Below are positions 60,482 through 64,000 of a stretch of 64,000 bases of DNA, piece by piece (the stretch's first letter is position 1; each line of letters begins with the position of its first letter). The notes under the pieces are model-generated. The model saw nothing but the letters and a program-made list of their open reading frames with translations, was not told where the DNA came from and ran no database searches. Source of the stretch: Pelolinea submarina (GTDB lineage Bacteria; Chloroflexota; Anaerolineae; Anaerolineales; Anaerolineaceae); assembly GCF_003966975.1 (NCBI RefSeq), contig NZ_AP018437.1, forward strand, positions 434,001-498,000, given 5' to 3'. The position numbers were made by a program, and so were the translations under genes.

Positions 60482-61909
60482 ATGAAGACACCTAAAGATC
60501 CTGAAATTGAAGCATTGTTGGAAAATCTCAAGGATGATCCCCAGCGAGATTCGCGTGCCAGCATGCAGGGAAAAGCACGATTTTTGGCGCAAGCACATTC
60601 GCTTGCACAAGACGTATCTCCTCAGCCGAATTGGCGTCATACGGGGTGGATCAAAAATTACTTTGAGAGGATGATACCAAAAATGAAAACACCTTTAAGA
60701 AATATTGCATGGACAAGCATCACCCTGTTGGCCGTTGTAGCCATTTTTCTGGCTGCAAAAACTACTCCGGTATCGGCACAGCAAATTCTTGAACGCGCTT
60801 CGGAAGCGCAGGCGAGCGCAGAGGCTGCCGCGGGTATTCTACACAACCGCGTTCAGATCTATCAAAATCCGGGTGTAGTGGAAGGGGAAGGAAATACAAC
60901 CATAACCGATGATTACTTTGATTACACGTCCGGTTATTACCGCAGCGAAACCAGGGATGAAAACGGAAATCTTATCAGTATTTCCGCAACCGATGGAGCC
61001 TACTCATACTATGCGCCCGTGGTAGATGAACGTGGAACTACGGTAATTGAACGTACCCCTGTTGAAAATAAACAGCCTGCTTCAACAAATACTGATGAAG
61101 CATCGGATGAGACTTCCACCCCTGCACAACGCAATAATGTAACAGCAACCACTCACGCCGCTTTCGACCAGTTTAATAACAATCCCAGAGTCGAGGTGGA
61201 GGAAGAAAAAACCTGGACGGACGGCAGCCCGGTATATGTACTGGTAAACCGCAGTTACCAAACCCAAAAAACATCAGAAGGAAGTACTGACGGCTCTTTG
61301 ACCGGAACCACCCGCATGGTATTCAACAAAGAAACCTACCAACTGCTGCAGATTGAAACAACCGTACACATTAATGACAAGGATATCCTTATTCAAAAAG
61401 TCGATTTTCTGCTCACTGAAACCCTTCCGGCCGATAGCGTCATCGTTTGGGACCTTAGTGATTTGGAAAACGTGAGCTTTGTGGATGCTCCACAATCGAC
61501 CGAACGCGAAGTGATCACGAATACATTGACCAGGCACGAATTAGCCCGGCATACGCAGGCTTACGTGCTAGACCCGATACCGGATGGTTTTTCGGAAGAA
61601 ATACTTGCCATTGACTATGAATTCAATGAAGCCTATGACAGTTATGAAATCCACTACCGTAATGCCGATGATGTTACGTTCAGCATGCAAGCCATTGGCG
61701 CATTGGAAACGAATTTTGTGGAAGAGAACTTCTATGATGGCAGCTATATGACAACTTCAGGGCTGGTGCTATATTTCAGCCCATCCTCTTCCGAGGACTA
61801 TACTTCTGCCATACTTGCCGCGCCGGATGGTAACGGGTTCCTTCTCTTCGCAGACATGTCGCGGGATGAAGTCACCAATCTGGCTGAGACGTTGGTTCTG
61901 GCTCAATGA
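60482..61909 (+). CDS. Membrane-anchored partner of the ECF sigma factor (probable anti-sigma)
   Basis: A 475-residue protein with a cytoplasmic N-terminus (~70 residues), one transmembrane helix at about residues 73-93 (IAWTSITLLAVVAIFLAA), and a large extracytoplasmic domain resembling RseB/LolA-like lipoprotein-sorting folds (SISATDGAYSYYAPVVDERG, RMVFNKETYQLLQIETTVH). No zinc-binding ZAS motif is seen in the N-terminus. Position and topology support an anti-sigma role; the sequence alone does not prove it. Confidence 0.7.
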   Translation: MKTPKDPEIEALLENLKDDPQRDSRASMQGKARFLAQAHSLAQDVSPQPNWRHTGWIKNYFERMIPKMKTPLRNIAWTSITLLAVVAIFLAAKTTPVSAQQILERASEAQASAEAAAGILHNRVQIYQNPGVVEGEGNTTITDDYFDYTSGYYRSETRDENGNLISISATDGAYSYYAPVVDERGTTVIERTPVENKQPASTNTDEASDETSTPAQRNNVTATTHAAFDQFNNNPRVEVEEEKTWTDGSPVYVLVNRSYQTQKTSEGSTDGSLTGTTRMVFNKETYQLLQIETTVHINDKDILIQKVDFLLTETLPADSVIVWDLSDLENVSFVDAPQSTEREVITNTLTRHELARHTQAYVLDPIPDGFSEEILAIDYEFNEAYDSYEIHYRNADDVTFSMQAIGALETNFVEENFYDGSYMTTSGLVLYFSPSSSEDYTSAILAAPDGNGFLLFADMSRDEVTNLAETLVLAQ

Positions 61910-62222
61910 TTTTTAAATTAGCAACACGATAAGAACCAAGTTTTTTTGAGGTAAAAAGGCAGGGTGAACTTGCGCCAAAAACGCCATCAGTGCGTTGCGC
62001 ATGTTCGCTCTGCTTCTTTTTTTATATAAAAACAATCGTCCTCCCCTGGAAGGCATACGTATAGAGATTTGACAAGATTTTCTTTTATTCAACACCTGCC
62101 CCGAATCCTGCCCGCTCCCTTTGATATCCTGCTTGCATGAATAACTTTCACGCTCAGCCGGCCGGCCTCAATTAATCTGGTAATCATTCTCCACAGGATA
62201 GAAAATCAATCCTTAGGCAAAG
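61910..62222. other. Intergenic region before the ABC importer
   Basis: No gene is seen. The stretch 61910-62222 is AT-rich at first and shows no strong hairpin or repeat apart from the regulatory array that follows. Confidence 0.4.
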
Positions 62223-62277
62223 CTTAACCATTACACAACAGCGCATTAACCTGAATTTAACCTTGCCAACTTACAAT
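62223..62277 (+). promoter_or_regulatory. Pho-box-like 11-bp direct-repeat array and -10 box
   Basis: Four consecutive 11-bp units start at 62223, 62234, 62245 and 62256, with cores TTAACC, ACAACA, TTAACC and TTAACC at the same position in each. TACAAT at 62272-62277 follows 9 bases after the last core, and there is no good -35. This is the layout of a PhoP/PhoB-type response-regulator array that replaces the -35 box. It is 44 bases upstream of the binding-protein gene. Confidence 0.55.
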
Positions 62278-62320
62278 CTGCTTGATTAACGATCAACATC
62301 TATCAAGGAGAAAAGTGAAA

Positions 62321-63472
62321 ATGATTTCCACCCGTTCTGTACGTTTGATCTCTGTGCTCTTCCTGGCAACCATGCTCCTCACCGCTTGCGGCGGTAGTTC
62401 CACGGCCGCGGCTTCAGATTGGAGCAATGCCGCCTCCGCTGAAGCCGGCGGCGGTATGGATGCTCTGGTTGCAGCCGCCCAAGCCGAAGGCGAATTGAAT
62501 GTCATCGCCCTGCCCGAAGATTGGTGCAATTACGGCGGCATGATCGCCACCTTCGAGGATAAATACGGCATCAAGGTCAATTCCATCACCCCCGAAGCTG
62601 GTTCAGCCGACGAAGTCCAGGCCATTATCGACAACAAAGAGAACAAAGGCCCGCAGGCCCCCGATGTGATCGACGTTGGCCCTGCTTACGGTCCTTCCTC
62701 CAAAGACCAGGACTTGCTGGCGCCTTACAAAGTGACCACCTGGGACAGCATGACCGGTGTCAAGGATGCCGATGGTTACTATTACACCGATTACAACGGC
62801 GTCATGGTCTTCGAGGTCAACACGGACGTCGTAACCGACGTTCCCCAGGATTACGCTGATCTCTTGGACCCCAAGTACAACGGCCAGGTCGCGTTGGCTG
62901 GTGATCCGCGTGCTTCCAACCAGGCTGCCCAAACGGTTTATGCCGCGGCGCTGGCCAACGGCGGTTCGTTGGATGACATCCAGCCCGGTCTCGAATACTT
63001 TAAAGCGTTGAATGAGAACGGCAACCTGCTACCCCTCATCGCCAACACCGGTTCCATTGCCATGGGCGAGACCCCCATCACCTTCCAATGGAACTACCTG
63101 GCGCTGGCTAACGACGATGCCTTCGCCGGCAACCCGCCGCTGGAGATCGTATACCCCACTTCCGTCAGTTGGGGCGGTTACTACCTGCAAGCTATCAGCG
63201 CCTACGCGCCGCACCCCGCGGCCGCGCGTCTGTGGCAGGAATTCCTCTACTCGGATGAGGGCCAGACCATCTGGATGACCGGTTACTGCGCCCCCGCCCG
63301 CCTGGCCGACATGCTCGAGCGCGGTGTTGTCTCCGCCGACTTGCAAACCAAGCTCCCCGATCCGTCCATCATTGCCAACGCTGTTGTGCCGGATGGCGAC
63401 CAGCTCTCCGCCGCCCGCGACCTGATCAAGGAACAGTGGGACAGTGTGGTTGGTTTGGATATCAAAGAATAA
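62321..63472 (+). CDS. ABC transporter substrate-binding lipoprotein (family 1)
   Basis: A 383-residue extracytoplasmic binding protein: signal segment LISVLFLATMLLTAC with lipobox Cys23. The core ELNVIALPEDWCNYGGMIAT, FEDKYGIKV, and PDVIDVGPAY follow the pattern of Fe(III)/spermidine/aminoethylphosphonate-type binding proteins; the ligand cannot be fixed. AAGGAG is 10 bases before the ATG (a GTG two codons earlier is possible). The permease gene follows. The upstream Pho-like array favours a phosphorus compound. Confidence 0.88.
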   Translation: MISTRSVRLISVLFLATMLLTACGGSSTAAASDWSNAASAEAGGGMDALVAAAQAEGELNVIALPEDWCNYGGMIATFEDKYGIKVNSITPEAGSADEVQAIIDNKENKGPQAPDVIDVGPAYGPSSKDQDLLAPYKVTTWDSMTGVKDADGYYYTDYNGVMVFEVNTDVVTDVPQDYADLLDPKYNGQVALAGDPRASNQAAQTVYAAALANGGSLDDIQPGLEYFKALNENGNLLPLIANTGSIAMGETPITFQWNYLALANDDAFAGNPPLEIVYPTSVSWGGYYLQAISAYAPHPAAARLWQEFLYSDEGQTIWMTGYCAPARLADMLERGVVSADLQTKLPDPSIIANAVVPDGDQLSAARDLIKEQWDSVVGLDIKE

Positions 63473-63561: not shown

Positions 63562-64000
63562 ATGAAAAATAAACAACTCAACAGGAAAAGCGGGAAGGAC
63601 CCCTCTCGCTGGAAAAGCCTGATCGGCTTGCTGCCATTTTTCTTTTTTATCGCATTCTTTTTAGTCATGCCTTCTATTACGCTTTTTTCGGGTGCTTTTC
63701 AGGACATGGATGGGCAATTCACCCTGGCCAATTTTTCTTTTCTGCAGAACACCTTTGCCTTGAAGTCCTACCTGACCAGCATTTGGGTCAGCCTGATCAC
63801 ATCCGTGATTGGCGGCGCCTTTGGCTTTTTCGTGGCCTATGCCACCACTTCCGGGCGTGCGCCTCGCTGGATGAGCACCATTCTGACTACTTTCTCGGGC
63901 CTGGCGGCCAACTTCGGTGGCGTGCCACTGGCTTTTGCTTTCATCGCCACGCTGGGCCGCACCGGTTTCATCACCGCGCTGCTCAAGGGCATTTGCTTAA
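63562..64000 (+). CDS. ABC transporter permease, N-terminal part (partial)
   Basis: The frame opens at ATG 63562 and runs off the window without a stop (146 codons seen). It has a hydrophobic first helix (LIGLLPFFFFIAFFLVMPSI), a typical periplasmic loop (FQDMDGQFTLANFSFLQNTF) and then the start of the binding-protein-dependent transport domain (YLTSIWVSLITSVIGGAFGF). It is the membrane partner of the preceding binding protein; the ATPase is presumably beyond the edge. Confidence 0.88.
   Translation, partial: MKNKQLNRKSGKDPSRWKSLIGLLPFFFFIAFFLVMPSITLFSGAFQDMDGQFTLANFSFLQNTFALKSYLTSIWVSLITSVIGGAFGFFVAYATTSGRAPRWMSTILTTFSGLAANFGGVPLAFAFIATLGRTGFITALLKGICL

Follow-up and report, generated by a model that had tools for sequence, protein, structure and literature searches.

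A predicted Pho box precedes an ABC importer, most likely for 2-aminoethylphosphonate, in Pelolinea submarina

The repeat array at the importer promoter

We analysed a 64-kb stretch of the Pelolinea submarina genome (G000:C1:434001-498000 of 3.52 Mb, estimated to be 94% complete; hereafter the window), near the end of which an array of TTAACC-type hexamers precedes the genes of an ATP-binding cassette (ABC) importer. The array is intergenic: a hypothetical gene ends at 61909, and the gene encoding the substrate-binding lipoprotein of the importer has its start codon at 62321. Its assignment as a candidate Pho box is well supported by comparison with phosphate genes and orthologous promoters, and the importer is predicted, at a probability of about 0.77, to be controlled by a PhoB-type regulator and to serve most likely for the uptake of 2-aminoethylphosphonate. 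The upstream region reads TTAGGC-n5-TTAACC-n5-ACAACA-n5-TTAACC-n5-TTAACC-n9-TACAAT, followed by AAGGAG 9 nt 5′ of the ATG. The features read from it are given below in window coordinates, together with their state in G249, a genome of the same genus.

62213-62218, + strand: possible fifth Pho-box unit, degenerate TTAGGC (4/6) in the 11-bp register; first three bases kept in G249
62224-62229, + strand: Pho-box unit 1, exact TTAACC; TTAACC also in G249
62235-62240, + strand: Pho-box unit 2, degenerate ACAACA (3/6); weak in G249 too
62246-62251, + strand: Pho-box unit 3, exact TTAACC; TTAATC in G249
62257-62262, + strand: Pho-box unit 4, exact TTAACC, 9 nt 5′ of the −10; units 2-4 score 18.0 with the pstS-trained motif described below
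62272-62277, + strand: −10 hexamer TACAAT without a −35, from the sequence and a sigma-70 scan; the 9-nt gap is also found in G249 and in a further genome, G113
62306-62311, + strand: ribosome-binding site AAGGAG, 9 nt 5′ of the ATG

The array thus contains the two to three or more tandem direct repeats at an 11-bp period that are expected of a Pho box, and at 9 nt it lies close to the expected 10 bp or so upstream of a −10 hexamer that has no −35. The sigma-70 scan of the promoter found no −35/−10 pair, which together with the sequence confirms an earlier statement, made in a preliminary description of this DNA, that the repeats end 9 bases before TACAAT with no −35 box. That description had also counted four TTAACC-type repeats; the 11-bp register and the positions hold, while the units are not equal, three being exact and one degenerate. 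The units are short, and a repeat finder reported no direct-repeat family at the array. The predicted structure of the leader RNA downstream of the −10 is unremarkable (z −0.59).

When four-unit TTAACC arrays were sought at every period from 8 to 20 on both strands of the window, no array besides that of the importer had three exact units; its 21 of 24 matches at period 11 compare with 17 for the best array at any other period. The footprint against G249 shows the same pattern of constraint, with 21 of 30 bases kept in the hexamers and 8 of 25 in the spacers (hypergeometric P 0.005) between flanks that have diverged. The 9-nt distance between the last unit and the −10 is repeated in G249 (L125) and G113 (L124), where the corresponding hexamer is TAAAAT.

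The array at pstS and in related genomes

A PhoU search located, on one strand of the same genome, a cluster of genes for a phoB-type regulator and a phoR-type kinase followed by pstS, pstC, pstA, pstB and phoU. Between phoR and pstS lies TTAAGC-n5-TTAACC-n5-TTAACA, the best three-unit match genome-wide (2 mismatches). Because the last unit is here 17 nt from TAATTT, as compared with 9 nt at the importer, TTAACA may double as the pstS −35. The preliminary description had named absence of the array before other phosphate genes as one finding that would count against phosphate control; the search was made and gave no such refutation, the array standing directly 5′ of pstS. The assignment of the pst-linked regulator as PhoB-type comes from its phoR-pstSCAB-phoU context, and its closest solved protein is RegX3. 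A second pstS-pstC-pstA-pstB set is present at L105:5956-9441.

Among 301 genomes of the order Anaerolineales, importer proteins were found in 96 (E ≤ 1e-30) and pstS in 183. Taking the maximum score over 200 bp of upstream sequence for periods 7-16, with a threshold of at least 14 of 18 matches, period 11 on the coding strand was reached by 15 of 29 pstS and 7 of 40 importer upstream regions; the reverse strand gave 1/29 and 2/40, and every other period gave 0-2, except period 7 with 4/29 for pstS. Training a motif matrix exclusively on 24 pstS promoters yielded the consensus CNTTAA(C/T)(C/T)T, which corresponds roughly to CTTAACCT with a linker of 3 bp. The importer site scores 18.0 bits with this matrix; among 940,512 background positions, the fraction scoring as high is 1.6e-5. 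At a threshold of 11.1 or above, the matrix detected a site upstream of 10 of 19 importers belonging to the clade of the window protein (clade A, described below) and 8 of 38 importers outside it. The control set, made up of sequences upstream of other genes from these loci, gave 11 of 205, with Fisher values of 3e-7 for clade A and 0.004 for the other importers; both overstate the significance because the rows are related orthologues, a point that tells against the reading. The array before pstS, the response of the importer site to a pstS-trained motif and the prominence of period 11 at both pstS and importer orthologues bear out the earlier view that this geometry is of PhoB/PhoP type.

Bacillus subtilis PhoP boxes are composed of several copies of TTAACA-type hexamers with 5-bp spacers, an organisation that the importer array appears to resemble, and the unit of the Escherichia coli PhoB box is of CTGTCAT type, in contrast to the TTAACC found here. 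The array has the same unit, linker and place as the Pho box of Synechocystis, where the site bound by SphR consists of three or more tandem 8-bp repeats of consensus CTTAACCT with 3-bp linkers (PMC1906773); the consensus and 11-bp period learned from pstS are likewise those of this box. The importer array differs in its occurrence in the Anaerolineales and in having three good and one or two weak units, and is a predicted binding site. The same paper places E. coli PhoB boxes about 10 bp 5′ of the −10 (PMC1906773), so that the E. coli box shares with the importer array both its 11-bp period and its distance from the −10.

Sister importers at L109, L108, L110, L115, L134, L135, L136, L139 and L141 are aligned in a row with DUF47, a PiT phosphate transporter and, frequently, a type I phosphodiesterase, and many of them share an element TAAAAT(G/A)TTAAC-n6-TTAAC 5′ of the binding-protein gene, which is perhaps another operator. 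Rhizobial orthologues of about 50% identity in Hoeflea and Aureimonas (L230, L249, L245) have upstream CTGTCAT-type 11-bp direct repeats of the proteobacterial PhoB-box form. A scan for CTGTCAT boxes across 31 distant importer loci (28 from Proteobacteria) gave 3/31 with at least 12 of 14 matches, as against 1/31 for the reversed word, which overlapped the same site; these boxes are suggestive only.

The importer and its predicted ligand

The genes downstream of the array, which are probably one operon judging from their spacing, are as follows; the first permease crosses the window end into L036.

62321-63472, + strand: substrate-binding lipoprotein, 383 aa, PF13343; predicted subunit of an importer for a phosphorylated or phosphonate ligand
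63562-64000, + strand, continuing into L036 to 4479: first permease, PF00528
L036:4476-5270: second permease
L036:5288-6349: ATPase
L036:6333-7001: HAD-IB hydrolase, TIGR01490 above cut-off
L036:7104-7889: UppS-like cis-prenyltransferase, below the uppS cut-off

The UppS-like gene is found 3′ of the importer and HAD genes in G249 as well. The binding protein belongs to PF13343 (SBP_bac_6; 75.5 bits, cut-off 24.6) and falls short of PF01547 (24.3 bits, cut-off 26), so that its earlier description as a family 1 binding protein was not borne out. A 2-aminoethylphosphonate importer is expected to combine a PF13343 protein, two permeases and a single ATPase, as is the case here. The ATPase scores best, out of 189 families, with PhnT2 (TIGR03265, a putative 2-aminoethylphosphonate ATPase), although at 426.5 bits it remains under the cut-off of 457.7.

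In a tree of 71 importers plus outgroup, the window binding protein is placed in clade A (19 rows, support 100/100), 13 members of which have PhnW and/or PhnX of the 2-aminoethylphosphonate pathway in the importer locus. Four representative proteins from these loci, one PhnW and three PhnX, exceed the NCBIfam equivalog cut-offs. PhnX is above cut-off in 5 of 31 relatives and stands beside a clade-A importer in four of the five; the fifth genome, G007, has PhnW and PhnX, with no importer within the 12 kb examined. G010, a clade-A member without PhnW/PhnX, encodes the C-P lyase gene phnJ elsewhere in its genome. Early scans of neighbouring genes had favoured phosphate esters, as importers outside clade A are often positioned 3′ of PiT and DUF47 genes and 5′ of a type I phosphodiesterase; it was the NCBIfam scan revealing PhnW/PhnX that shifted the preferred ligand. 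The nearest orthologues have genes of the PhnW/PhnX phosphonatase pathway as neighbours, and on the presumption that this context also indicates the ligand of the window importer, 2-aminoethylphosphonate is the best guess; we rank this compound, or one closely related to it, ahead of a phosphate ester.

A characterised importer of similar description is AepXVW of Pseudomonas putida BIRD-1, described as a PF13343 2-aminoethylphosphonate ABC importer that is induced in a PhoBR-dependent manner and typically encoded beside phnWX or phnWAY, its synthesis in marine strains being insensitive to phosphate (PMC8316502). The likeness extends to the PF13343 binding protein and the ABC importer; the difference is that the P. 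submarina genome has no PhnW or PhnX above cut-off where AepXVW typically has phnWX or phnWAY as neighbours. Sugar-phosphate importers of the AfuABC group (4r73, 8x1a) are second-tier neighbours in fold and sequence with known phosphorylated ligands, and differ in their low identity to the window protein (about 23%) and their lack of phosphonate context. The closest folds with known ligands, AfuA and VcA0625, bind glucose-6-phosphate or other phosphorylated compounds; P5PA, also among the closest folds, is presumed from the meaning of its name to bind a phosphorylated ligand. The closest fold overall, 5t1p (31%), has no stated ligand.

We propose that the PhoB/PhoP-class regulator encoded with its kinase beside pstSCAB-phoU would bind the tandem 8-bp CTTAACC(T)-type units and their 3-bp linkers. 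Under low phosphate, phosphorylated regulator may occupy the array with one helical turn per unit and, as the geometry suggests, recruit RNA polymerase to the promoter with its −10 TACAAT and no −35. This would switch on the binding protein, two permeases and ATPase of the importer along with the HAD-IB hydrolase and UppS-like gene, allowing uptake of an organophosphorus nutrient that is best guessed to be 2-aminoethylphosphonate.

Control of this kind is ordinary and newly recognised in this bacterial group, for which it supplies a concrete Pho-box motif in the Anaerolineales (Chloroflexota); literature searches on the Pho box, Pho regulon or phosphonate genes with Chloroflexi/Anaerolineae found no title describing such a motif. 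It also ties a widespread and unnamed PF13343 importer to phosphorus supply, through phosphonatase genes in one clade and through PiT, DUF47 and phosphodiesterase in another, and a ligand screen is thereby cheap and well directed.

Weighing of the alternatives

Several observations weigh against a Pho-controlled phosphonate importer. The two-unit pattern (≤2 mismatches) occurs 294 times genome-wide against 499 for the reversed control, with no enrichment, and the three-unit pattern (≤3 mismatches) has 5 matches, distributed over 4 places, with 4 for the control; because these bare counts do not exceed the reversed controls, the significance of the array derives from the number, register, place and conservation of its units. 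The motif found before the phoB-phoR-pstSCAB-phoU operon is missing from the second pst operon (pstS-trained score 1.5), and 9 of 19 clade-A and 30 of 38 other importer promoters remain below 11.1. The pst-linked regulator and kinase fall below the PhoB and PhoR equivalog cut-offs (for the regulator, TIGR02154, 238.5 against 296.2 bits), and the binding protein is far below those of PhnS, a 2-aminoethylphosphonate binding protein (TIGR03227, 54.1 against 395.3 bits; NF011620, 63.4 against 310 bits). The P. submarina genome, at 94% completeness, has no PhnX (best 45 against 220 bits), PhnW (224 against 360.8 bits) or PhnJ above cut-off, so that genes of a C-P cleaving pathway were found neither alongside the importer nor elsewhere in the genome, as opposed to the 13 of 19 clade members with PhnW/PhnX. 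The importer is also absent altogether from two other genomes of this genus (2/4).

That TTAACC recurs here by chance, in intergenic DNA rich in A and T, would be in keeping with the genome-wide three-unit matches, which do not rise above the reversed control and of which one falls inside a coding sequence. Such an origin is highly improbable for an array whose three exact units at period 11 are unique in the window and absent at any other period, whose register is kept within the genus while the spacers diverge, and whose motif is both enriched before orthologues and common to pstS. An 11-bp spacing is common to the OmpR/PhoB class, and the array could instead be the operator of another OmpR-family regulator with the same layout; the pst-linked regulator in fact scores higher with YycF (272) than with PhoB (238.5), both below cut-off. 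This we regard as improbable, since the same hexamer and spacing are found 5′ of pstS here and in many relatives, the pstS-trained motif detects the importer site, and phosphorus genes neighbour the importer in relatives.

The more serious alternative, though still unlikely, concerns the ligand rather than the control: a Pho-controlled importer of a phosphate ester, such as a sugar phosphate, phosphoethanolamine or a glycerophospho compound, from which the downstream HAD-IB phosphatase would remove the phosphate. It draws on the HAD-IB hydrolase within the locus combined with the lack of PhnX, PhnW and PhnJ in the genome, on the sister importers outside clade A that adjoin PiT, DUF47 and type I phosphodiesterase, and on the sugar-phosphate binders AfuA and VcA0625, plus P5PA, among the nearest folds. 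It is opposed by the nesting of the window protein within clade A, where 13 of 19 members lie beside PhnW/PhnX, and by two loci (L126 and L127) in which PhnX and the same HAD-IB protein occur together behind the importer; HAD-IB is therefore no simple replacement for PhnX. The earlier expectation of a phosphorus-containing ligand such as a phosphonate has the orthologue context in its favour and the missing enzymes of the P. submarina genome against it. One way of joining the two, which we consider improbable, is that the genus retained a 2-aminoethylphosphonate importer under Pho control when PhnW/PhnX were lost, the phosphonate being broken down or used through HAD-IB, perhaps with the UppS-like protein, in a manner not yet recognised; if true, this phosphonate pathway would be distinct from both phosphonatase and C-P lyase.

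Other sites were noted in the same genome. A 37% identical importer paralogue of PF13343 type is encoded at L169:6972-12579 (G000:C1:3476972-3482579), where we take the neighbours to be a sugar kinase, a DeoR-type regulator and an aldolase, which suggests a different, sugar-related ligand. The match to the repeat pattern at 143608 was rejected, being inside a coding sequence that presumably specifies the exonuclease VII large subunit, as was an exact two-unit match at 2770521 (L002), which no recognisable phosphate gene adjoins. A strong Pho-box-like array of 19.9 bits at L041:1501-1528 (G000:C1:130671) lies 5′ of genes for a VTC-domain polyphosphate polymerase and DUF4956; it was not counted as an established Pho box, the G249 orthologue having no such site and a terminator-like hairpin with a T run standing 3′ of the array. 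The word TTAACCACAGAT(A/G)AACA occurs in spaced clusters near positions 303198, 501908 and 732852 of G000:C1 and is likely a dispersed repeat element.
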